From contig JAUIAV010000007.1 of NCBI GenBank assembly GCA_030425195.1, positions 62,001 to 126,000 of the forward strand: DNA of 64,000 bases, read 5' to 3'. Under the pieces are notes generated by a model that made no database searches, had not been told where the DNA came from, and saw nothing but the letters and a program-made list of their open reading frames with translations. Below are positions 7,798-30,931 of the stretch, in pieces. Source of the stretch: Gammaproteobacteria bacterium (GTDB taxonomy: Bacteria > Pseudomonadota > Gammaproteobacteria > Pseudomonadales > Azotimanducaceae). The number at the start of each line of letters is the position of its first letter. The first letter of the stretch is position 1. The translations under genes and the position numbers were made by a program.

Positions 7798-8738
7798 CTC
7801 TGAACCAGCGTCTCAACCAGCGCGGCACCCACCCAGGCCAGCGGTGGAATGATGAGGTAAAAACCCACCCTGGAGACGATGGAGACATCCACCGGCCAGG
7901 CGGAAAGATGCAGGATCCGCTCCCGGTGCGCGAGCAGCTGCTCGAGGGTGCCGACATCGTTGCGATCGGCCGCATCTATGCGGCTGTTCAGATCTGTCAG
8001 CCGCGCCGTCTTCGCCCGTCTGATCCCATCGTGAACACCTGAAACCGGCAGATAGAAGAGCAGCGAGGCGGAAATGAGACCGAAGATCAGACCGGTCTGA
8101 TAGTTGACCCAGCGGAACTCCGCATCCAGCGACTGCAGCGGCATGAACGCCAGCGCACCCATGACCACGAGCACGTCCCGGACCGCCGCGCGGCCGATGG
8201 GGCGGAGACGGTCGAGTGCGTAGAGATCGATCTCCATATGACCGCCGAGCCGCCGCATGGCACGGGCATCGTGCAGCCGTCCAACCGTCAGAAGTGCGGC
8301 GACCATCCACAGAATCACGTTGCCGACGATGAGCGGTACGTCCGGCAACGGACTCAGGACATCGGGTCGGAAGAAAAGCACTTCTGCGAACTGGAGGAGG
8401 CCGAAAACCGCTCCTGCGAGTACGGCACCCGCGGCAGCCCGGCCGGACAGATCACGGAGTGCCGCATCCATGGCGGCCACATCCGAAATCTGTGGTTTGA
8501 GCAGACGGACCGTGTCCCGATGACTGCGATACAGGTAGGTGAACGCCGCCAGCAGGTAGGCCGATATCAGGCTGAAGGTGAGCGCGCTGCCCCACATCTG
8601 GGTCCGGTTCTTCCAGCAGCAGCTGTCGACGTCCGGCCCGCCCAGGACGATGCCGTAAACGATCAGGCTCAGAATCACCCAGGCCCCCGGTACTGCCAGG
8701 GGATGGGTTCGATCGGAAATGCGGATCAGCCAGCGCAC
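7785..8738 (-). CDS. multi-pass membrane protein of unknown function
   Basis: A 317-residue protein that I do not recognise. It has about six to seven hydrophobic segments: two near the N-terminus (around residues 18-35 and 50-68), two in the middle (around 100-150), a pair around 195-235 and a last one near the C-terminus. Between them lie charged loops, including a helical region near residues 245-280 rich in Asp, Arg and Leu. No catalytic motif is visible. It lies 34 bases downstream of the peroxiredoxin gene on the same strand and may share its transcript. Confidence 0.65.
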   Translation of the reverse strand: MRWLIRISDRTHPLAVPGAWVILSLIVYGIVLGGPDVDSCCWKNRTQMWGSALTFSLISAYLLAAFTYLYRSHRDTVRLLKPQISDVAAMDAALRDLSGRAAAGAVLAGAVFGLLQFAEVLFFRPDVLSPLPDVPLIVGNVILWMVAALLTVGRLHDARAMRRLGGHMEIDLYALDRLRPIGRAAVRDVLVVMGALAFMPLQSLDAEFRWVNYQTGLIFGLISASLLFYLPVSGVHDGIRRAKTARLTDLNSRIDAADRNDVGTLEQLLAHRERILHLSAWPVDVSIVSRVGFYLIIPPLAWVGAALVETLVQSYLD

Positions 8739-8772
8739 GATCCGGGCACGGCCAAGAGGTCAGATCCCCCGG

Positions 8773-9252
8773 TCAGAGCGCCTCGAGAATGGATTCCGCC
8801 TTGGAGACCTCGAACTGACCCGGCGCTTCCACGGCGAGCTTGGTCACCACGCCATCGTCCACGATCATCGCATAGCGCTGGGAACGGGTACCGAGTCCGA
8901 AACCGCTGCCGTCCATCTCCAGGCCGATGGCCGCGGTGAACTCGCCATTGCCGTCACCGGCCATGATGATCTCATCCGCGTTCTTCTCCTCACCCCAGCT
9001 GTCCATGACAAAGGCGTCGTTGACGGATACGCAGACGATGCTGTCCACCCCTTTACCCTTGATCGCATCGGCGTTCACCACGTAACCAGGCAGATGTGCC
9101 TGGGAACAGGTCGGGGTAAAGGCACCGGGGACCGCAAAAAGCACCACTCTTTTACCGCCGAACAGGTCCTGGGTGGCCTTCGGTGTGGGCTTGCCGTCCT
9201 CCATCACGTAGAGCGTTGCTTCAGGCAGCTTGTCGCCTTCTTGAATCGCCAT
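8773..9252 (-). CDS. peroxiredoxin, Prx5/hybrid-Prx type
   Basis: A 159-residue thiol peroxidase. The peroxidatic site is P-G-A-F-T-P-T-C with Cys49, the form typical of the Prx5 group (type II peroxiredoxin, often glutaredoxin-dependent), which reduces H2O2 and alkyl hydroperoxides. The later G-L-G-x-R-S-Q-R-Y motif supplies the conserved Arg. No glutaredoxin domain is fused. An open frame extends further upstream, but the ATG at 9252 is where family similarity starts, and an AGGAGG-like sequence precedes it. It lies between the Nudix gene and a membrane-protein gene on the same strand. Confidence 0.93.
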   Translation of the reverse strand: MAIQEGDKLPEATLYVMEDGKPTPKATQDLFGGKRVVLFAVPGAFTPTCSQAHLPGYVVNADAIKGKGVDSIVCVSVNDAFVMDSWGEEKNADEIIMAGDGNGEFTAAIGLEMDGSGFGLGTRSQRYAMIVDDGVVTKLAVEAPGQFEVSKAESILEAL

Positions 9253-9308
9253 GTCGTCGTCCTCCTTGGGTAAGCGAACGGCGAGTGTGGAGAAAGGCGG
9301 CCGGCGGG

Positions 9309-9980
9309 TCAACGCCACGCAAAGGCGGGCTGTTCGTAATGCGCTACCCGGGTGTCCCGTCCCAGCAGACAGACCTCGCGGAACTGATAGATCAGTGCCG
9401 CCGTCGGTGCGGCGATGTAGTCGCTGCCTACCGGCATGCGCAGAACGGGATGCTCGCTGCCGGAAAGGCTGCTGAGCATGGGTGCGTCTTCCCGCAGAAA
9501 CTCCGAGAGCGGGATGCGGTGCACGGAGGCCACCTCGTCCGGATTCGGCTCCGTATCGAGCCGGACACCACCCCAGACCACCACCGGTGACATCACGAAG
9601 CCGGATCGGGTGACGAAGTCGTCCAGGCGTCCGAGCACCTGGTCTTCTCCAATCCTCACATTGACTTCCTCGTGCATTTCCCGCAGCGCGGTCTCCACGA
9701 CGGTTTCGCCGGGATCCAGCCGTCCTCCGGGAAACGCCCACTGCCCCGCGTGCTTACGCAGAGTTGCCGCCCGCCGGGTCAGGATAAGAGCCGGTGCTTC
9801 ATTCCACGCTTCGTGGACCGGCAGACCGGGCAGATCGGCACCGAATCCGGTACCCGTCACCGTGATGGCCACCGCCGCGTGGTGCGCGTCGTCCACGTCG
9901 GCAAGCTGGACGGGAAAGGCGTCGAGCCGGGCGCGGATGCGCTCCTTCAGCGACGAGGTGAGAGTTTCCAGCGCTTCCAT
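9309..9980 (-). CDS. Nudix hydrolase, CoA-pyrophosphatase-like
   Basis: A 223-residue protein with a full Nudix box starting at G-G-R-L-D-P-G-E-T and ending R-E-M-H-E-E-V, the metal-binding helix that cleaves nucleoside diphosphate-X compounds. Preceding it is L-R-K-H-A-G-Q-W-A-F-P-G-G, close to the pattern in NudL/CoA diphosphatases. The long N-terminal part (about 100 residues before the box) also fits that subfamily. CoA or a derivative is the probable substrate, but this is inferred. It lies 56 bases upstream of the peroxiredoxin gene, same strand. Confidence 0.82.
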   Translation of the reverse strand: MEALETLTSSLKERIRARLDAFPVQLADVDDAHHAAVAITVTGTGFGADLPGLPVHEAWNEAPALILTRRAATLRKHAGQWAFPGGRLDPGETVVETALREMHEEVNVRIGEDQVLGRLDDFVTRSGFVMSPVVVWGGVRLDTEPNPDEVASVHRIPLSEFLREDAPMLSSLSGSEHPVLRMPVGSDYIAAPTAALIYQFREVCLLGRDTRVAHYEQPAFAWR

Positions 9981-10038
9981 GTCCCAAGACTGCCAAATCC
10001 GCTAACGTGCCTCAATCGGATGTCGGGATGGCAAGCAC

Positions 10039-10917
10039 GTGCGGGATGATCAGAAGGCGCTCTCGTTCGGAATTGGCGCCGTCGTGCTCTGGTCCACTGT
10101 GGCCACGGGTTTCAAACTCGGCCTGTCGGTCATGGAGCCGGTGCAGCTGCTGTTCCTCGGCAGTTGCATCTCCGCACTCGTCTTCGTACCGGCCGCGGTC
10201 CGACAGGGCTGGCCCCGGCGCCCGCTGAATCTCAAGGAAGGCCTGGTCTTTGCTCTGCTGAATCCCGTCCTCTACTACCTGGTGCTGTTCGAAGCCTACG
10301 ACCGGCTCCCCGCGCAGATTGCCCAGCCGCTCAACTACACCTGGGCTATCGTGCTCGCCCTCCTGGCCGTGCCCGTGCTCGGACAGAAACTCACGCCCCG
10401 GATGCTCTGGGGCATCGGCATCGGCTATCTGGGTGTGGTCGTCCTGCTCAGCCAGGGACGGTTCGATACCCTGCCCGATCTCGACTGGTTCGGTGTGCTG
10501 CTGGCTCTGGCTTCCACCGGGATCTGGGCGGGTTACTGGCTCTACAACGCCCGCTCCACCACGGAGCCCCATGCACTCATGGCCACCAGCTTCCTGCTGG
10601 CGGTCCCTCTGCTTGCCGTCATCTGTCTCGCGGGTTCCGGGCTCCCGACTCTGACCCTGAAGAACCTCGGTTACGGCGCCTGGGTGGGGCTCGTGGAAAT
10701 GGGCATCACGTTCCTGCTCTGGCAGCAGGCGCTGCGGTTGAGCAGCCAGGCGGCAAGGATCGGTCAGCTGATCTTTCTCTCTCCGTTCCTGTCTCTGCTC
10801 CTGATCTCATCCGTGCTGGGAGAGACCATCCACGTCACCTCCTGGCTGGGACTCGGCGTGATCGTGATCGGACTGCTGGTGACCGGGCGCCCGGATCAGG
10901 GCTTGAGCGCCCGGTAG
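10039..10917 (+). CDS. EamA/DMT family transporter
   Basis: A 292-residue inner-membrane protein with two EamA repeats of five hydrophobic helices each. Recognisable features are a first helix with A-V-V-L-W-S-T, L-N-Y-T-W-A-I in the first repeat, and L-I-F-L-S-P-F-L-S-L-L near the end of the second. The family exports amino acids and other metabolites; the substrate cannot be read from the sequence. The start is a GTG at 10039. The 3' end overlaps the convergent esterase gene by 22 bases. Confidence 0.87.
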   Translation: MRDDQKALSFGIGAVVLWSTVATGFKLGLSVMEPVQLLFLGSCISALVFVPAAVRQGWPRRPLNLKEGLVFALLNPVLYYLVLFEAYDRLPAQIAQPLNYTWAIVLALLAVPVLGQKLTPRMLWGIGIGYLGVVVLLSQGRFDTLPDLDWFGVLLALASTGIWAGYWLYNARSTTEPHALMATSFLLAVPLLAVICLAGSGLPTLTLKNLGYGAWVGLVEMGITFLLWQQALRLSSQAARIGQLIFLSPFLSLLLISSVLGETIHVTSWLGLGVIVIGLLVTGRPDQGLSAR

Positions 10918-11978
10918 AGGAACGGCAGGCTCCGGTCCATCCGGTAATCGATGCCGGAATGGGTGTCGTCGAATTCCTCGTAGCGGTGTGGGATCCCGGC
11001 CCGGGTCAGCGCGCCCGACAGCTGCCGGGTACCGAAATGGATGTGGAACTGGTCCCGCCAGCCGCAGTCGATGAAGATCGCCTTCAGCGACTTCAGCGCA
11101 CGTTTATGGTCACCCACCATGTGCACTGGATCGTGCCGCAGCCACTGCCGCCAGCGGGCTTCGATGATCTCACCCGTTTCCAGATCGAAAGGCAGGCGGA
11201 AGCCGTTGGGTGCGGAAGGCGCCGGATCGTAGCTGGCCGCCATGCAGAGGTTCATCAGCACCATCACCTCCCCACCTGAGGGCCTGTCCTTATCCCGGAA
11301 CGCTGCCAGGAAGCGCCTTACGCGACCATCGTCCAGACCGCGCTTCAACCCCGCTCTGGCGCGCTCGACATCGTAGGCACCCGCCTTCCGTTCCGGCTTC
11401 CTGTACCGGGTCAGCTCGGTGAGGGTGTTGGGCCAGTCACTGCGGTAGCAGAAATCGAAGTAGGCATCTCCCGAGTGATTGGCCACCGCGCCCCAGTGCT
11501 CCGGATAGCGCATACCCTGCACGATGGCCCCGTAGCCGCCGGAAGATTTGCCGAAGCAGCCGCGGTGGTCCCGATCGGCCAGCGTACGGAACTCGGCATC
11601 GATGAATGGAATCAGCTCCCGGGTGAGGTAGTCGGCATAGCGTCCGATGGCGCTCGAGTTGATGTACTGATTCCCTCCCAGGCTCGTGAAGCAGTCGGGG
11701 AAAACGACGATGGCGGGTCCCATCTTCCGCTCACCGATGAGCCGATCGAGCCGTTGTGGCAGATTCTCGGCGAAGTTCTGCCAGTTCGTGTGCGACCAGC
11801 CCGATCCGGTGTACCCCACCAGATCGAACAGCACGGGGAAACGGCGTCCGACCGGGCCCTGGTCATACTGAGGGGGCAGCCAGACGGGAAACCGGCGCAC
11901 GTGCGGGTCGCCGAGCGGATTTCCTTTCAGCACCCGGGATTCATGCTCGACGACGACCATCCGGCCGGCTCTGGTCAT
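10896..11978 (-). CDS. putative esterase, alpha/beta-hydrolase fold (possible ferri-siderophore esterase)
   Basis: A 360-residue alpha/beta hydrolase of the esterase-D/enterochelin-esterase-like group. The nucleophile elbow is G-K-S-S-G-G with Ser145 as the likely nucleophile; D-F-D-D-T-H-S-G near the C-terminus holds the probable catalytic His. No signal peptide is visible, so it is probably cytosolic. A GAGGAGG Shine-Dalgarno about 8 bases before the ATG at 11978 supports the start. It is divergent from a TonB-dependent siderophore receptor across a Fur-box-like site, so hydrolysis of an imported ferri-siderophore is an attractive but unproven role. A general carboxylesterase is the alternative. 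Confidence 0.78.
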   Translation of the reverse strand: MTRAGRMVVVEHESRVLKGNPLGDPHVRRFPVWLPPQYDQGPVGRRFPVLFDLVGYTGSGWSHTNWQNFAENLPQRLDRLIGERKMGPAIVVFPDCFTSLGGNQYINSSAIGRYADYLTRELIPFIDAEFRTLADRDHRGCFGKSSGGYGAIVQGMRYPEHWGAVANHSGDAYFDFCYRSDWPNTLTELTRYRKPERKAGAYDVERARAGLKRGLDDGRVRRFLAAFRDKDRPSGGEVMVLMNLCMAASYDPAPSAPNGFRLPFDLETGEIIEARWRQWLRHDPVHMVGDHKRALKSLKAIFIDCGWRDQFHIHFGTRQLSGALTRAGIPHRYEEFDDTHSGIDYRMDRSLPFLYRALKP

Positions 11979-12089
11979 TGCCTGTTCCTCCTCGGTTGAT
12001 GACGCCTACTTTAAACCGCGCTCTCCGTATTGCATCCAGCCCGGGTCGATGGCTGTTCTGCCGCGCACGTCCTTCAATGAACTATAGCT

Positions 12090-12108
12090 TGTAATAGTAA
12101 TCATTCTC
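12090..12108. promoter_or_regulatory. Fur box candidate
   Basis: The 19-base site matches 14 of 19 positions of the classical inverted-repeat Fur consensus and contains an intact AATCATT core. It lies 37 bases before the TonB receptor start and 112 bases before the divergent esterase start, so Fe2+-Fur could repress one or both genes. Confidence 0.72.
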
Positions 12109-12145
12109 ATTTAGCTTACGTCCTTTACTTGCACTGGAGAGCGCC

Positions 12146-14269
12146 ATGCGGGCGAAACTGCCTCTCGGCCTGATGTCCCTGATTTTCCTCCTCAGCCCAG
12201 CGGCCATGGCGGCGGAACCCAACGCCTCCGACGACACCATCGAAGAGATGATCGTCACTGCGACTCTGAGCCGGTTTTCCGCCACCAAGTCCAACACGCC
12301 CATCATGGAGACGGCCCGATCCATTTCCGTGGAAACCCACCAGCAGATTCTCGACCGTGGGGCGCTGAACGTCGCCGACACCTACGTCTACAAATCCGGC
12401 GTGTTCGGCGAGACCTACGGCTACGCTACCCGCGGCGACTGGGTACGGGTCCGGGGCCTGGACGTTCCGGAATACCGGGACAGCCTGCAGGGCCTGTTCG
12501 GCAACTACAACAGCACCCGGGCGGACATCTACACCGTCGAGCAGGTGGAGATCCTCAAAGGTCCTGCGTCCGTGCTTTACGGCAGGGGCTCGCCCGGGGG
12601 CCTGGTCAACATCGTCAGCAAGCTGCCGGACGAGGACGCTGGCAGCGAGCTGGTCGCCGATCTCGGCAACTACGATCGTTTCCAGATCGCCGGCGACCTC
12701 AATGGGCGGATCGGCGATTCAAAGGAGTGGCTGTTCCGGGTGATCGGCGTCTACCGCGAGAACGAATCCCAGGTGGATTACGTGAAAGAGGAGACCGTCA
12801 CCTTCGCCCCATCACTCACCTGGCGTCCGACGGAACGGACGGAGCTGACCGTGCTCGCCACCTATCAGGAAAACAACGGCGACGTGGGCGCCCAGTTCCT
12901 GCCCGTCTCCGGCACCCTGATTCCGGGGCCTGACGGACGCCGCATTCCGTCCTCCACCTACTCGGGCGAGCCGGACTTCAACTTCTACGACACCGAATCC
13001 ACTTCCGTCACTCTGCTCGGCTCACACCGGTTCAATGAAACCTGGGAGATCGAAGGCACGGCGCGGGTGACGGACAGCTCGTCCGACTACCAGCAGGCCT
13101 GGACGGCCTTCATCGGCGGCGACCGCCACGTCTACGACACCGATGGCTCTCTGTACCTGGACGGCCTGACCCCGAGGAGCTTCTATCTGGCAGAGGGCGC
13201 GTCGGACCAGGCGGCCATCGACCTGCGCAACCGGATCACCTTCTCGACCGGCAGCCTGGACCACGAGATCCTCGCCGGCGTCCACTACCAGAAAGTCGAT
13301 ACCGACACCGACTCTGCCTACAACTTTGCCATGGGCTACAACTTCTCGCCGGACCCCGCCACCTGGGACACCCGCTTCTGGCTCAACCTGTACGAACCCG
13401 TCTACGGCAACGTTCCCACCGACGCCGACCTGCTGCCCATTACCGATACGCCCGGCAGCACCACTACCGACTTCGGCCTCTACTTAAGCGATCAGATCGT
13501 CGTGAACGGCTGGCACTTCACCCTGGGGGTGAGGTTCGACGACGCCGAGACCGATACCGGATCGGCGTCTCAGAAAGACGACGAGATCAGCGCCAGCTTT
13601 GGCGTGCTCTACGAATTCGCCAACGGCTTTGCGCCGTATGCGAGCTATGCCGAGTCCTTCGAGCCGGTTGCCGGCACCGACATGATCACGGGCAGCGCTC
13701 TGAAGCCCGAGGAAGGTGAGCAGTGGGAGCTGGGCCTGAAGTACCACCACGCCGCCAGCGGATCCTATTTCACCACCGCCATTTTCGACATCGAGCAGTC
13801 CAACCTCTCGAACCCCAACGACCTTCCGAACGCGCCCTCTCAGCAGGAAGGCGTGACGGAGATTCAGGGCATCGAGTTCGAGGGTGTCCTGGTGCTCGAT
13901 GACTTCTTCATCGAGATCGCGGCCAGTCATCTCGAAACCGAGAATCCTGACGGCTATCGTCTGGCGACGGTGCCGGAGGATCAGGCCTCGATCTGGCTCG
14001 GCTACCGGCCGGAGGGCAGGTTCGCAGGTCTCAGGGCCGGCGGCGGGCTGCGCTACGTAGGCGACTCCTGGGACGGCATCGACACCCTCAAAACACCTTC
14101 CTACACGCTGGCGGACCTGATGATCGGATACGAGTTCGGCGCCTGGGACCTGGCTCTCAACGTCCGCAACCTCACCGACAAAAAATACCAGGCCACCTGT
14201 CTTGCGCGCGGCGACTGCTTCCCCGGGGAGCGGCGGACCGTGGTGGGACGGCTGAGCTTCTCCTTCTAG
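12146..14269 (+). CDS. TonB-dependent siderophore receptor
   Basis: A 707-residue outer-membrane receptor. Residues 1-22 form a signal peptide cleaved near A-M-A-A. A TonB-box-like E-E-M-I-V-T-A lies around residues 34-40. The plug domain follows with the signature V-E-Q-V-E-I-L-K-G-P-A-S-V-L-Y-G-R-G-S-P-G-G. About 500 residues of alternating beta-strands then end in L-S-F-S-F, the C-terminal aromatic signal for outer-membrane assembly. The length and the plug motif place it with FhuA/FpvA-like ferric-siderophore receptors; the ligand cannot be told. A Fur box precedes it and two membrane genes follow with almost no gap, suggesting an iron-regulated operon. Confidence 0.93.
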   Translation: MRAKLPLGLMSLIFLLSPAAMAAEPNASDDTIEEMIVTATLSRFSATKSNTPIMETARSISVETHQQILDRGALNVADTYVYKSGVFGETYGYATRGDWVRVRGLDVPEYRDSLQGLFGNYNSTRADIYTVEQVEILKGPASVLYGRGSPGGLVNIVSKLPDEDAGSELVADLGNYDRFQIAGDLNGRIGDSKEWLFRVIGVYRENESQVDYVKEETVTFAPSLTWRPTERTELTVLATYQENNGDVGAQFLPVSGTLIPGPDGRRIPSSTYSGEPDFNFYDTESTSVTLLGSHRFNETWEIEGTARVTDSSSDYQQAWTAFIGGDRHVYDTDGSLYLDGLTPRSFYLAEGASDQAAIDLRNRITFSTGSLDHEILAGVHYQKVDTDTDSAYNFAMGYNFSPDPATWDTRFWLNLYEPVYGNVPTDADLLPITDTPGSTTTDFGLYLSDQIVVNGWHFTLGVRFDDAETDTGSASQKDDEISASFGVLYEFANGFAPYASYAESFEPVAGTDMITGSALKPEEGEQWELGLKYHHAASGSYFTTAIFDIEQSNLSNPNDLPNAPSQQEGVTEIQGIEFEGVLVLDDFFIEIAASHLETENPDGYRLATVPEDQASIWLGYRPEGRFAGLRAGGGLRYVGDSWDGIDTLKTPSYTLADLMIGYEFGAWDLALNVRNLTDKKYQATCLARGDCFPGERRTVVGRLSFSF

Positions 14270-25381: not shown

Positions 25382-27088
25382 CTACCAGCCTCCGCCGCCT
25401 CCGCCACCGCCACCTCCGCCCGAGAATCCCCCCCCGCCACCGCCGGAAGAGGATCCCGGCGGTGTGGCGGCAGAGGCGATGGCGCTGGAGAAACCGGATC
25501 CCACGTTGTCCACGAAGCCGGACAGACGGTGGGCATTGAAGTCGCCGTGGTACCAGCGGGGCGAATAAGCGGCCCGCTCTCCCCGGTCCATCTTCGACAG
25601 CGCCGATGCAAACTGCTCAGCCCAGTCGTTCTCCACACCCAGGGCGATGGCGAACGGCAGATAGCGTTCGAACAGCTCGGGCGTGAGCTCGGGCCGGTGC
25701 CGCAGATTCAGATCGTCTTTCTCCGCAACTTTCAGATACAGCTCGAATCCGTCCAGCTCGTCCATCAGCAGGCGGCCGCGCCGGGTCGGGGATTTCATCA
25801 GTATGAGAAACAGCGCCTGCATCGCCGCATTCAGCAGAAACACACCCACCACCAGCGGGTTGACAAGATCGGCAACGACCAGGATGACGAAGGCGATCAC
25901 GCTGCCGATGGAAGTAGGCAGCAGCCACTGGGAATTGTTCCGGAAGTAGACGTTGTAGTAGTTGCGCTTCAGCGCCCGGCGGTGCGCCTTGCGCGCCGCA
26001 CCGATGAGCACGTGATTCTCATCGTCCAGCACCACCTCCGGCCCATCCCGGAACAGCCGGGAAATCAGCACTTCCTCGCCGGGGCCCAGCGGCTCCGCAG
26101 AAGAGGCCCGCTCGAGCACGTAATCGTCACCGGTCTGGCGGATGGTCAGATAGCCTTTCACGGCCAGACTCACCACCGCGGCACAGAGTGCATCGGCGTC
26201 ATACCCCATCCTGCGGATGTAGCGCATGGAAGCCGCCGAGAAACCCTCCGGCGGCTCGTAGTGAGCGAAGGTGACCCCTGCACGCGGATCTCTGCCGTAG
26301 CGGTGCCAGGCAAAGATCAGAAATCCGGCAACCGCAAGAAACACGGCCAGTGCCAGCAGCAGTCCCAGATTGTCCATCAGCAGGAACCGGATCCGGTCGA
26401 CGGTGCTCGGCTCGTACACCACGCCCTTGGGCCAGCTGACCACCAGAGTCAGACCTTCCCTGGCCTGGAGAGGCCGGGTCGTCCGGATGCTGGCTACCCC
26501 CTCCTCCACCGAGCCGGAGAAGTCACGCCCGGAGATCCCGAACGCGCCCGTATAGCCTTCCACTGCCAGATCGGAAGCAGGCACCCTGCCGGGCAGCACG
26601 ACCCGGGCACTGGCTTCATCGATCGGAAAGCCCCAGTCCGTGCCGGTCACGTTCCAGTAGAGCTCGTCACGGCCTTCGAAGTAGCCGATGCTTCGATCCG
26701 TCCGGTAGGTCAGCGCAAAGGTGTATTCGCCCGGAGACAGGGTAATCGACGCGCTGCCCATGTAGACGCGCACGCCGTTCGAGCGGGATTCGGTATGCCA
26801 GGCTTCGGGTTCGCCATCACGCACAACGGAGACCACCGCGAAGGGGACGCGGTAGTCGTTGCCGAAGCGGTCCTCAAAGGATGTGGGGAAATCCCGGTAG
26901 ATTCCCCGCCGGATCTGATTGCCCTCAGCCCGCACGCGGATCGTCTCCGTCACCGTCATGCTGGCGTCCGCTGCGATACGGATATCAGCGTGGTAGGAAA
27001 GAATCCGCTCGTCCGCCGAAACGGCACCGGAGAACAGCAGCGCAAGCAGGAGCGCAACGATGCTCCGACCAGGGCACAGTCTGCTCAC
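25382..27088 (-). CDS. DUF2207 membrane protein with Gly-rich tail
   Basis: A 568-residue membrane protein. It has a signal peptide or first helix (residues 7-25), an extracytoplasmic DUF2207 domain of about 220 residues with the early W/Y-H-A-D-I-R-I strand and E-G-N-Q-I-R-R-G-I-Y-R-D-F-P, a helix near residue 235-255, a cytoplasmic part, two further helices near 385-425, and a C-terminal tail made largely of Gly. This layout, including the Gly-rich end, is normal for the family. Function is unknown. It overlaps the lemA stop/start by 4 bases, and DUF2207-LemA pairs occur widely, so the two probably act together in the envelope. Confidence 0.88.
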   Translation of the reverse strand: MSRLCPGRSIVALLLALLFSGAVSADERILSYHADIRIAADASMTVTETIRVRAEGNQIRRGIYRDFPTSFEDRFGNDYRVPFAVVSVVRDGEPEAWHTESRSNGVRVYMGSASITLSPGEYTFALTYRTDRSIGYFEGRDELYWNVTGTDWGFPIDEASARVVLPGRVPASDLAVEGYTGAFGISGRDFSGSVEEGVASIRTTRPLQAREGLTLVVSWPKGVVYEPSTVDRIRFLLMDNLGLLLALAVFLAVAGFLIFAWHRYGRDPRAGVTFAHYEPPEGFSAASMRYIRRMGYDADALCAAVVSLAVKGYLTIRQTGDDYVLERASSAEPLGPGEEVLISRLFRDGPEVVLDDENHVLIGAARKAHRRALKRNYYNVYFRNNSQWLLPTSIGSVIAFVILVVADLVNPLVVGVFLLNAAMQALFLILMKSPTRRGRLLMDELDGFELYLKVAEKDDLNLRHRPELTPELFERYLPFAIALGVENDWAEQFASALSKMDRGERAAYSPRWYHGDFNAHRLSGFVDNVGSGFSSAIASAATPPGSSSGGGGGGFSGGGGGGGGGGGW

Positions 27089-27636
27089 GTGAGATTCACT
27101 CTGACGTTCGCCCGCGCTTCGTCGTCGGCCTCGAAGAATTCAGCCTGCCTGAAACCGAACGGCCCGGCCAGCAGCAGGTGGGGGAAGGACTCGACCCGGG
27201 TGTTGAAGACCCGTACCGCTCCGTTGTAATAACGCCGGGCGTACTGCAGGTGATCCTCGACCTCCGTGAGACTGGTCTGCAGAGATCTGAAGTTCTCATC
27301 CGCCTGCAGCTCGGGATAGGCTTCCTGCACGGCGATGAGCCGATGCAGCCCGGCTTCCATCGCATCCTCCAGCGCCGCGCGTTCGGGCAGACGGCGGGCG
27401 GACTCGCTCCGCGCACGGAGCTCCGTGACCGCTGCCAGCGTGGCCTGCTCGTAATCCGCATAGGCCTTCACCGCCTTGACCAGCTGCGGCACCAGGTCAT
27501 GCCGCCGGACCAGCTGCACGTCTATGTCGCTCCAGGCATTCCTGACCTGGTTGCGGTCTCTGACCAGTGCGTTGTAGATCCAGATCCCCAGACCCACGAA
27601 GAGCACGGCCGCACCAGCGGCGACGGTCGTCAGCAT
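27085..27636 (-). CDS. lemA: LemA family protein
   Basis: A 183-residue LemA protein: one N-terminal membrane helix (residues 4-22), then a long helical bundle beginning V-R-N-A-W-S-D-I-D-V-Q-L-V-R-R-H-D-L-V-P, the family signature, and a later A-R-R-Y-Y-N-G-A-V-R-V-F-N-T-R motif. The role is not settled; members sit in the envelope with the globular part on one side of the membrane. It forms a translationally coupled pair with the DUF2207 gene and begins 16 bases after the selenoprotein candidate, so all three may share a message. Confidence 0.92.
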   Translation of the reverse strand: MLTTVAAGAAVLFVGLGIWIYNALVRDRNQVRNAWSDIDVQLVRRHDLVPQLVKAVKAYADYEQATLAAVTELRARSESARRLPERAALEDAMEAGLHRLIAVQEAYPELQADENFRSLQTSLTEVEDHLQYARRYYNGAVRVFNTRVESFPHLLLAGPFGFRQAEFFEADDEARANVRVNLT

Positions 27637-27652: not shown

Positions 27653-27994
27653 TCAGGTGAGCACCTCCCCGTAGGCGTCTTCGTTGAAACCGACCAGCAC
27701 CGTGCTGCCGACGATGGCGGTCGGTGCCCTGAGGTTTCCGGTGGGGCCCAGCATGGCATCCACCGTCGCCCCGGCAATCCGCGTGCCGAGCTCGTACTCG
27801 GTCACCTTCCTGCCCTTGGCCACGATGAGTCGACGGGCGCCTTTCAGGAGCTTGCGGGCATCCTCTTTCTGCAGCTTTCTGCTCGCCGGGATGGTTTCTT
27901 CGATCTCGATGCTGTTTGCCTCCAAGAACTTGGATGCTCGGGTACAGCTGGTTCAGCCCTTTCGGAAGTAGTACCAGTTGACGCTGGCTGACAT
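27653..27994 (-). CDS. ArsC/glutaredoxin-like selenoprotein candidate (TGA read as Sec14)
   Basis: Read through one in-frame TGA (27953-27955), this gene codes for 113 residues. The start ATG at 27994 has an AGGAGA ribosome site (28003-28008). Residues 7-17 read W-Y-Y-F-R-K-G-U-T-S-C, with TGA exactly at the first position of a C-x-x-C redox motif (U14, C17). R-A-P at residues 89-91 supplies the cis-Pro of a thioredoxin fold, followed by a V-G-F-N end typical of ArsC/Spx-like proteins. A SECIS-like hairpin begins 4 bases after the TGA. Likely a redox enzyme with selenocysteine as nucleophile; substrate unknown. A call starting after the TGA (TTG at 27925) would lose the active site. The alternative is a nonsense mutation of a Cys form (TGC/TGT to TGA), made less likely by the hairpin and the intact remainder. 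No selA/B/C is in the window. Confidence 0.8.
27911..27948 (-). promoter_or_regulatory. bacterial SECIS-like hairpin
   Basis: On the minus strand an outer stem GCUGU/ACAGC (27944-27948 with 27911-27915) encloses an inner stem of 8 positions, GCAUCCAA with UUGGAGGC (27930-27937 with 27918-27925; one A-G mismatch), and a 4-base loop GUUC (27926-27929). The loop starts 23 bases after the UGA and its first base is G followed by U. Bacterial SECIS elements usually have 16-37 bases to the apical loop and a G in its first two positions; the exact consensus is from general knowledge. It would recruit SelB. Confidence 0.72.
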
Positions 27995-28002
27995 GTCCGG
28001 AT

Positions 28003-28008
28003 TCTCCT
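28003..28008 (-). promoter_or_regulatory. ribosome binding site of the selenoprotein gene
   Basis: AGGAGA on the minus strand, 8 bases before the ATG at 27994. It places translation initiation upstream of the in-frame TGA, which is the main evidence that the TGA is normally read through. Confidence 0.75.
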
Positions 28009-28073: not shown

Positions 28074-29630
28074 TCAGCCGAGCAGCTCTTCGTACAGCGG
28101 ACCCAGATAGTCACGCCGCTCCGGCGACAGATACCCGAAGTTCGACCCCCGGTCGATCAGCTCCCAGTATTGAGGACGGTCCTCGTTTTCCAGCTGCTGG
28201 CGCAGACGCAGCAGCCGGCTGGACCGCTCTCCCTTCAGGTCCTCCACCATGCGGTCGAGGCGCTGGCGGTCGCCCCGCATCAGGAACAGCGTCGCCAGCT
28301 GAATCTGCGAACGGCGGACACCCAGGAGACTGTCCTCCTGCTTTTCCTCCCGGATTTCCTCGTCCAGATCGAGCAGCACCTCCAGAAGCGGGTCCACCTG
28401 GTCGCTGTCCAGTGTCAGCGCATGCTCGATCAGCCGGACCACGTCGTAGGCTGCCGCATCCAGCAGGAAGGAGATGCCGTTGAGATGCGCGAGCTGGCCG
28501 TACTCACTGAAGAAGCCGGCGATCTCGAACGCTCTCTCTCCCTGGCCCTGCTCGAGCAGGTGTTCGGCCACCTCGCGGTAGCGGTCCATCAGATAGTAGG
28601 CCGTTCGCGCGTCCCGGGCGTTGATCGTCGTGCGCAGGAAACTGTTGAAGCTTCGCACGCAGAGCCAGAGCAGGTCGGGATTGCCGGTCCCCAGATCCTT
28701 GGCCACCTGGCAGGTATTGATGCCGATCAGGTTGGCCACGTCCCGGGCATTGCCCGCACTCTGCGACATGAGCGCATTGAGCTGACGGAAGATCTTGGTC
28801 TCCAGCCAGATGCGCTCCTGCTCGACATCGTCGATGGCGTCGTCGGTGAGCGCGACGAAATCCGGATCCCGCGCGATGGCTTCCGTGATCCCGTACCAGC
28901 CTTCGGGCAGGCGTGCCCGCAGCTGTGCGTAGTCATAGACGATGGCGACCATGCCGTTGATTCCGCTCATGGCGATGCTGCGATCACCCTGCTCTATGGC
29001 GCCGCGGGTCACGTCCTGCAGCTCGTCGATGGCCGTCAGCGTCATCCGTTGCGCCGGTTCGACGGCGGTGCGGATGCCATCCTCGATCGCCTTCACCGCA
29101 TTCCGGCAGATCCGCTTGATCACGCTGATCGGCGACAGAAAGGTGAAAACGAAATAGATGTACGGGAGCAGGAGCAGCAACGAAACGGTGACCAGGGTGA
29201 AAGCAACGAAAAAACCCGCGTGAGGAAGGATGCCGGCGTCATCGTGGCTCAGCGTGATCCCGATCCACACGCACTGAATCGTCGTAATGAGGAAAAGCCC
29301 CAGAACGATCATGTTCACGGGTTCCCGGACGAAGAGCCTCGTGATCAGATGACTGAACCGGGTCGCCGCAAGCTCGACAACGATGGCGACCACGGTGATG
29401 GCGATTCCGAGGACGGCCGCCACCACCTCCGCCGCACCGCTGACCGCATCCAGCGCGCCCCGGTCATCGAGGGTATGCAGCCAGGCAGCCGGGTCCGTGA
29501 GCAGGGTGGCGCCGCTGAGTGCCGCGGATACCAGCCAGACACCGAGCGCGGCAAGTCCCAGGCAGACAAAGGCCAGGAAGGCGCTGGACAGAGGCGATCT
29601 GTCCCGATAGCGGGTGATCTGAGGGCGCAT
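28074..29630 (-). CDS. DUF2254-type membrane protein
   Basis: A 518-residue protein with four hydrophobic helices in the first 165 residues (about 18-38, 65-88, 105-125, 138-160), followed by a long soluble alpha-helical region rich in Asp, Glu, Arg and Leu. The pattern V-A-I-V-V-E-L-A-A-T-R-F-S-H in helix 2 and the F-S-P-I-S-V-I-K-R turn after helix 4 match the DUF2254 group of predicted membrane proteins. Function is unknown. The soluble part shows helical-repeat character and could act as a scaffold. It is 79 bases upstream of the selenoprotein candidate. Confidence 0.78.
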   Translation of the reverse strand: MRPQITRYRDRSPLSSAFLAFVCLGLAALGVWLVSAALSGATLLTDPAAWLHTLDDRGALDAVSGAAEVVAAVLGIAITVVAIVVELAATRFSHLITRLFVREPVNMIVLGLFLITTIQCVWIGITLSHDDAGILPHAGFFVAFTLVTVSLLLLLPYIYFVFTFLSPISVIKRICRNAVKAIEDGIRTAVEPAQRMTLTAIDELQDVTRGAIEQGDRSIAMSGINGMVAIVYDYAQLRARLPEGWYGITEAIARDPDFVALTDDAIDDVEQERIWLETKIFRQLNALMSQSAGNARDVANLIGINTCQVAKDLGTGNPDLLWLCVRSFNSFLRTTINARDARTAYYLMDRYREVAEHLLEQGQGERAFEIAGFFSEYGQLAHLNGISFLLDAAAYDVVRLIEHALTLDSDQVDPLLEVLLDLDEEIREEKQEDSLLGVRRSQIQLATLFLMRGDRQRLDRMVEDLKGERSSRLLRLRQQLENEDRPQYWELIDRGSNFGYLSPERRDYLGPLYEELLG

Positions 29631-30151: not shown

Positions 30152-30175
30152 TCGTTGAATTACATGAACGCGTTC

Positions 30176-30931
30176 ATGCCCGGAAATCACGGATTTTTGA
30201 CGTTGCGGCTCAGTCCGTCGCGCACTGCCGTGATCCTGCTGCTGATGCTGATGCTGATGCTGATCCACGGTAGCACTGTCCAGGCCGAAACCGGCGCCTG
30301 GCAGACCACGGATTCCATCCGGGCCGCCGCGGAATCGCATGCCGGAGCAAGCCTCTCCCGCCCGGGTCTGAACGTGAAAGTCAGCGTGGGCGCTCTGGAC
30401 AACCGGCTGAAGCTCGTCCGTTGCGATCAGCCCCTGCAGGCGTTCACGCCGCCGAACACGGAGATCCGTCAGAACCTGGTGATCGGCGTCCGCTGCCGGG
30501 GCTCCAGCCCCTGGAAGGTGTACGTGCCGGTCAAGCTGTCGGCCCGGCGCCAGGTGCTCGTCACCAGCAGGCCACTGGCGCGTGGGGAGGCGCTCACCCG
30601 CGGGGACGTCCGACTCGAAATACGCGACATCACCACCACCCGGGGAGCTTATCTCACTGACTTGAGCCAGTTGAGCGGCAAGATCCTGAAGCGGACGGTG
30701 CCGGAAGGCCGGCTGGTCACTGCCGACCTGCTCAACGACGAGGACATCATCAAACGCGGGCAGCGGGTGACGCTGCTGGTGACCCAGTCCGGCTTCATGG
30801 TTCAGATGGCGGGCACCGCGCTCTCGGACGGCACCATCAACGAACGGATCCGGGTGGAAAACGATTCGTCCCGGCGGACGGTAGAAGGCATCGTGCGCTC
30901 TCCCAAGCTCGTCGAAGTGATCTCCTACTGA
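30176..30931 (+). CDS. flgA: flagellar P-ring assembly chaperone FlgA
   Basis: Periplasmic chaperone for FlgI during P-ring assembly. A signal peptide includes a run of Leu-Met repeats coded by a CTGATG repeat. The mature part has the SAF domain: V-T-S-R-P-L-A-R-G-E-A-L-T-R-G-D-V and R-T-V-P-E-G-R-L-V-T-A-D-L. The C-terminus has the F-M-V-Q-M-A-G-T-A-L-S-D-G and N-D-S-S-R-R-T-V-E-G motifs of FlgA. I use the ATG at 30176, because the sigma-54 promoter would start the transcript near 30162; in-frame ATG 30164 and TTG 30155 lie at or before that point. The start is therefore uncertain by a few residues. Confidence 0.93.
   Translation: MPGNHGFLTLRLSPSRTAVILLLMLMLMLIHGSTVQAETGAWQTTDSIRAAAESHAGASLSRPGLNVKVSVGALDNRLKLVRCDQPLQAFTPPNTEIRQNLVIGVRCRGSSPWKVYVPVKLSARRQVLVTSRPLARGEALTRGDVRLEIRDITTTRGAYLTDLSQLSGKILKRTVPEGRLVTADLLNDEDIIKRGQRVTLLVTQSGFMVQMAGTALSDGTINERIRVENDSSRRTVEGIVRSPKLVEVISY

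Follow-up and report, generated by a model that had tools for sequence, protein, structure and literature searches.

In a 64,000-nucleotide stretch of a gammaproteobacterial genome, referred to here as the window, the product of a short gene on the minus strand is almost certainly a selenoprotein that belongs to NF041106, a subfamily of the ArsC/Spx/YffB group, with an in-frame UGA that would be read as selenocysteine (Sec). The preliminary description of this DNA had proposed an ArsC/Spx-like selenoprotein with Sec as the first residue of a UTSC motif, and this proposal is borne out by a match to a curated family model, a conserved TGA codon, a SECIS-like hairpin downstream of it, and the full complement of Sec genes encoded by the same genome. 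The gene is a clean example, in that ordinary translation cuts it at the UGA and several independent lines of evidence come together in one place; taken alone, it extends an already listed family by a single genome.

Reading frame, family membership and conservation of the TGA codon

On the minus strand, an ATG at 27994 opens a frame of 13 codons that runs into a TGA (27955-27953), after which 99 sense codons follow up to a terminal TGA (27655-27653), the latter lying outside the coding coordinates listed in Table 1. Direct reading agrees with the preliminary description on all of these points, including the ribosome-binding site AGGAGA. When the TGA is translated as U, the 113-residue product starts MSASVNWYYFRKGUTSC, with the stretch W-Y-Y-F-R-K-G-U-T-S-C near its N-terminal end and G-N-L-R-A-P-T and V-G-F-N near its C-terminal end. 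Purine-rich stretches similar to AGGAGA, as judged by eye, also occur 5′ of most of the 25 homologous starts. The list of open reading frames (ORFs) obtained with translation table 11 gives, in the same frame, a 90-residue ORF that starts at a TTG (27925-27653). As many as 60 ORFs of at least 60 amino acids overlap the listed 12 kb on both strands, and an open frame alone is therefore weak evidence; the present frame is more than chance because the TGA and the frame after it are conserved in 25 of 25 related loci and in 80 of 80 loci of a wider set. Recoding of TGA throughout the genome was considered and rejected, since five of the six neighbouring genes examined end in TGA and use it as an ordinary stop.

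Table 1. Features of the selenoprotein gene and its immediate surroundings, in window positions
Feature	Position	Strand	Basis
ArsC/Spx-like selenoprotein coding sequence, 113 residues with Sec14 (predicted)	27656..27994	-	direct reading; NF041106 107.9 bits, cut-off 85
In-frame TGA, Sec14 codon (predicted), first position of the U-T-S-C motif	27953..27955	-	TGA conserved across homologs
Cys17 codon, second redox residue of UxxC	27944..27946	-	invariant column in the alignment of 25 sequences
SECIS-like hairpin, 15 nt after the TGA	27918..27937	-	folding, synonymous constraint, pairing, covariation
Shine-Dalgarno-like AGGAGA, 8 nt 5′ of the ATG	28003..28008	-	direct reading
Upstream neighbour, DUF2254 membrane protein, same strand	28074..29630	-	Pfam PF10011
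Downstream neighbour, LemA family protein	27085..27636	-	Pfam PF04011

The protein scores above the cut-off of the NCBIfam model NF041106 (ArsC_rel_Se_1, ‘ArsC family (seleno)protein’), with residues 5-108 aligned to positions 1-107 of the 107 in the model; a Pfam scan of the protein recognised no family at E <= 0.001. Among 57 related genomes, a match over the NF041106 cut-off is present in 25 (the genome carrying the window included), and all 25 members have a single stop, TGA, at the equivalent codon. The weaker matches in these genomes (13 of 38) have no stop and reach at most 31 bits, far under the cut-off, and five of them, once translated, resembled regular ArsC/YffB proteins of the Cys type. 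Scanning species genomes yielded 533 relatives. In the best 80 of these, some of them from records with Myxococcota, Deltaproteobacteria, or Acidobacteria in the title, the codon corresponding to Sec14 is TGA in every case; one of these loci (L078) has a masked stretch near the end of the frame. The set of 25 and the best 80 of 533 are not independent, with 15 copies common to both. A search of 390 genomes from the same order gave ten matches at E <= 1e-10, of which nine exceed the cut-off; each of the ten has one in-frame TGA, six also belong to the 57-genome set, and the three sets of copies overlap. A sample of 398 genomes from the phylum contained nothing beyond the window's own copy at E <= 1e-12, and the family is therefore patchy. 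The viral contigs searched gave a single weak match of 27 residues.

In the alignment of 25 sequences, identity between the window copy and the other 24 is 49-66%, and W7, Y9, R11, U14, T15, C17, F23, K60, G61, R89, and P91 are invariant; the closest relative of the window copy among the best 80 of 533 loci (L038) shows 72% identity. The preliminary description had suggested checking homologs for Cys or Sec at position 14, and a Sec codon is present there in every close homolog seen, with Cys in distant ones. No close Cys form of the NF041106 protein was seen in the 57 related genomes or among the best 80 of the 533 scan relatives, which were ranked by likeness to a Sec-containing query, so that more distant Cys forms could be missed. 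Most redox selenoproteins have close Cys versions, and because none was seen here, the family makes a reasonable subject for asking what leads certain redoxins to retain selenium. A more distant member, at 78.4 bits and thus under the cut-off of 85, was observed in a different family of the order; this locus (L132, G671:C114:9294-9593) carries U-T-G-C and likewise the TGA.

A SECIS-like hairpin and the selenocysteine machinery

The signature of a bacterial SECIS element is a small loop with a G, located shortly after the UGA. In the window gene, a hairpin extends from +19 to +38 after the UGA and consists of a GC, a mismatch, TCCAA-GTTC-TTGGA, a second mismatch, and a GC, with G as the first base of the loop. 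Synonymous choice across the 25 copies is most frozen within this hairpin, where Ser at +7 is encoded by TCC in 19 of 19 copies and Lys at +8 by AAG in 22 of 22, and Leu at +10 by TTG in 21 and CTG in four of the 25; some codons outside the hairpin, such as -3, +20, and +24, are also more frozen than expected, but most are not. All 84 distinct sequences (from 105 rows) have GTTT or GTTC as the loop; in them, the two C-G core pairs are unbroken and the innermost pair, 26-31, is A-U in 61, G-C in nine, and unpaired in 14. From these 84, 41 sequences were hand-picked for diversity to assess covariation, and the resulting counts may be favourable: pairing cells amount to 92.7%, versus 21-52% with a slid partner. 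Changes on both sides occur in three pairs, a number reached in 2 of 500 shuffles. In the same 41 sequences, the count of further pair types does not favour structure (4 versus 5.1 in shuffles, below all shuffles), and one slid version outscores the hairpin in covariation (0.114 versus 0.104). Folding energy does not set the hairpin apart either (z -0.94), with 34 of 200 shuffles folding equally well. Taken by its conserved synonymous sites and compensatory changes, the candidate element looks as expected for a bacterial SECIS. By analogy with established bacterial Sec insertion, SelB would bind the hairpin and bring Sec-tRNASec to the ribosome at the UGA of codon 14.

The sel genes that the preliminary description had named for a search of the same genome, which is 100% complete in 45 contigs, were all found over their cut-offs. 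selA (533.1 bits), selB (398.5 bits, with SelB domains found), and the tRNASec gene (72 bits, anticodon tca) are clustered within 4 kb on contig C17, and selD (357.7 bits) is located on contig C33. The selD gene (C33:6459-7382) has an in-frame TGA of its own before A-A-K, from which SelD itself is probably also a selenoprotein. Formate dehydrogenase was considered as a further Sec client and rejected: no match in this genome exceeds the Fdh-alpha cut-off, and the two pieces found contain no internal stop. SelD and the ArsC-like protein are therefore the only Sec proteins that can be named in this genome. Within the region C17:78000-97900, a DUF2961 gene, selA, selB, a small ORF without a Pfam match, and the tRNASec gene stand in a row at 8140-13029, and predicted genes that by reading appear to belong to the TCA cycle lie beside this cluster.

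The distribution of SelB was compared across the 57 related genomes, where it scores over its cut-off in 23 of the 25 with the gene versus 12 of the 32 without it (p 2.6e-5); within the family to which the genome belongs, the corresponding figures of 23 of 25 and 8 of 11 do not differ significantly (p 0.15). In one genome with the gene (G018; draft, 170 contigs, 91% complete), no SelB exceeds the cut-off and tRNASec is present, and in another (G020; draft, 550 contigs, 91% complete), neither SelB nor tRNASec does so. Among 20 genomes hand-picked from the 80 loci, tRNASec is found over the cut-off in 15, with no hit in five.

Two explanations of the frame dispense with Sec or with the upstream codons. 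If the locus were a pseudogene or the product of an assembly error, the TGA would have arisen by nonsense mutation, or would stand for a TGC or TGT read wrongly, in an ordinary Cys-type redoxin, and a lone TGA in one draft genome would indeed look alike; however, every one of the 25 related and 80 wider loci (overlapping sets) has this TGA within a conserved frame, and the synonymous sites of the hairpin are frozen, which leaves this explanation a virtually negligible probability. It is also extremely improbable that the 90-residue frame is translated alone from the TTG at 27925, with the upstream codons open by chance. Although this ORF is the one listed in the frame under table 11, seven positions that are invariant in the 25 sequences, W7, Y9, R11, position 14, T15, C17, and F23, lie upstream of the TTG, as does the first strand of the structural model. 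Translation from the ATG with insertion of Sec at the UGA is thus preferred to both.

Predicted fold and relation to arsenate reductases and Spx

The predicted fold is thioredoxin-like, of the ArsC/Spx type, and closest to Spx. An AlphaFold2 model built from the 25 sequences has a mean pLDDT of 91.1, with its first strand formed by residues 7-10. The top solved match in Foldseek is Spx 6gho (E 3.2e-4, TM 0.56). VIA-align places Spx 3ihq at Z 8.8, barely above the range that it terms middling (rmsd 2.9, 87 of 113 residues, 25% identity), SACOL0876 at Z 8.7, and glutaredoxin-type chains at Z of about 6 to 8. The fold assignment is supported by profile hits, both to 2m46 (9.4e-9) and to Spx (7.2e-6). 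Along with the thioredoxin fold, the protein shares with Spx (1z3e, 3ihq, 6gho) a conserved Arg-x-Pro region, and Sec14 and Cys17 occupy the places of the Spx cysteines, so that UTSC corresponds to the CTSC of Spx with Sec replacing the first Cys. The broad fold is also common to YffB (1rw1), presumably a Cys-type protein, at Z 8.1 over 90 residues (rmsd 4.7, 19% identity). To the glutaredoxin-type ArsC proteins described by TIGR00014, the likeness lies in the broad fold and the place of the reactive residue, whereas the protein differs from them in its UxxC motif, in the lack of an Arg before the cis-Pro, and in giving no match to that model at E <= 1. With the NF041106 proteins, it has in common a full-length match over the cut-off and a UxxC motif with Sec first, and nothing was found that sets the window copy apart.

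Immediately ahead of the cis-Pro, 24 of the 25 aligned sequences have Ala, which is Ala90 in the window copy, and one has Ser. The genome also has a separate ArsC-like gene (C23:75359-75679), which is of the Cys type with a CSKS motif, scores 98.9 bits against the TIGR00014 cut-off of 106.05, and has an Arg at the place matching Ala90. We take this Arg to correspond to Arg94 of the plasmid R773 ArsC, in which the other two anion-binding Arg residues are presumably Arg60 and Arg107; no Arg of the window protein aligns with these two positions, which fall in a loosely matched part of an alignment with 17% identity.

An ArsC-type domain with UxxC, cd03032, which we take to be the Spx subgroup, is a feature that the protein shares with a group known from marine metagenomes as ‘Arsenate reductase 2’. 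In the accessible parts of the literature, an ArsC-like selenoprotein family is listed in a 2006 survey (PMC1794560), and the 2008 Global Ocean Sampling survey describes ‘Arsenate reductase 2’ with UxxC, in 42 sequences with Sec and 238 with Cys (PMC2398784), whereas no close Cys form appears in the present sampling. A 2022 review gives an ‘Arsenate reductase-like protein’ of COG1393 with UxxC, in the part available (PMC9312934), and a 2026 review, as far as its accessible text goes, ties the protein of that name and motif to NF041106, its UxxC with a single Sec being matched here by U14-T-S-C17, and regards almost all proteins of this kind as largely uncharacterised in function (PMC13188914). 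From the motif and the citation, rather than from sequences, we infer that ‘Arsenate reductase 2’ and NF041106 are the same group. The statement in the preliminary description that Sec-containing members are known from environmental surveys holds, but could be made more specific, as a curated subfamily model exists and is listed with UxxC; its remark that substrate and partners look undescribed still stands against the accessible part of that listing (PMC13188914). On the same partial sources, the family, its motif, and the position of Sec are already in print, and what is new is the copy in this genome.

A Sec-containing arsenate reductase would belong to the same broad group, and such enzymes are named in the accessible part of the 2005 Sargasso Sea survey, though with a UXXS motif (PMC1088965). 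This identity is nevertheless improbable for the window protein, whose motif is UxxC and not UxxS, which lacks a match to PF03960 at E <= 0.001, and in whose family the Arg before the cis-Pro is replaced in 25 of 25 sequences. Judged from the sequence, the substrate is probably not arsenate, because Ala90 stands where the Cys-type ArsC of the same genome has Arg, TIGR00014 is unmatched at E <= 1, and that separate Cys-type ArsC is present. A Spx-like regulator, which would bind RNA polymerase and sense redox state through UxxC, has in its favour that the nearest folds are those of Spx, with CTSC at the equivalent place. However, the Spx/MgsR model TIGR01617 gives 29.1 bits, far under its cut-off of 75.05, Spx regulators are known from Firmicutes, and a sensor would not ordinarily be expected to use a selenenylsulfide, all of which makes a regulator of this kind very improbable. 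The assignment to NF041106 as a selenoprotein of the ArsC/Spx/YffB group is the one retained here.

Proposed redox role and gene neighbourhood

The NF041106 selenoprotein of the window may act as a small cytosolic oxidoreductase with a thioredoxin fold, in which the Sec14 selenolate would attack an oxidised substrate, Cys17 would resolve the intermediate as a selenenylsulfide, and thioredoxin or glutathione/glutaredoxin would re-reduce the protein. To this redox cycle as a whole, we attach an even chance of being correct.

Genes for LemA and DUF2207 proteins (Pfam) are located downstream of the selenoprotein gene, and a FlgA gene (Pfam) was noted at 30155-30931 of the window. When seven window genes were compared with the neighbours of the homologs in the 80 loci, a close counterpart was obtained for the DUF2254 gene alone, which lies next to the homolog in one locus (L038) and is 67% identical. 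The AMP-binding gene of the window has matches of 26-31% identity in eight of the 80 loci, mostly several kb away, and the other five genes have no counterpart at 1e-8; for LemA, the neighbours in the 80 loci gave no match at this threshold. Each neighbour family is confined to at most 18 of the 80 loci, and none of the linked genes points to a substrate. The six neighbour clusters with members listed look, by appearance, like sets of near relatives.

In 17 of the 80 loci, or 16 of the 75 with at least 1 kb of downstream sequence, a same-strand gene of one cluster lies directly downstream of the homolog (L039, L040, L042, L043, L046, L048, L049, L052, L053, L057, L059, L060, L063, L067, L085, L097, and L107). 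The records of these 17 loci are titled Gammaproteobacteria, Pseudomonadales, K189A clade, and HTCC2089, with two titled only Proteobacteria, and the one member of the cluster that was scanned is a nitroreductase (PF00881). The downstream nitroreductase-like gene is a possible redox partner in one clade, and its adjacency may reflect shared descent. A more speculative proposal, to which we give a low probability, is that NF041106 represents a selenium-obligate clade that needs Sec and reduces an electrophile other than arsenate, in one marine clade together with the downstream nitroreductase-family flavoprotein. In L042, L048, L057, and L085, a second nitroreductase-like gene was observed upstream.
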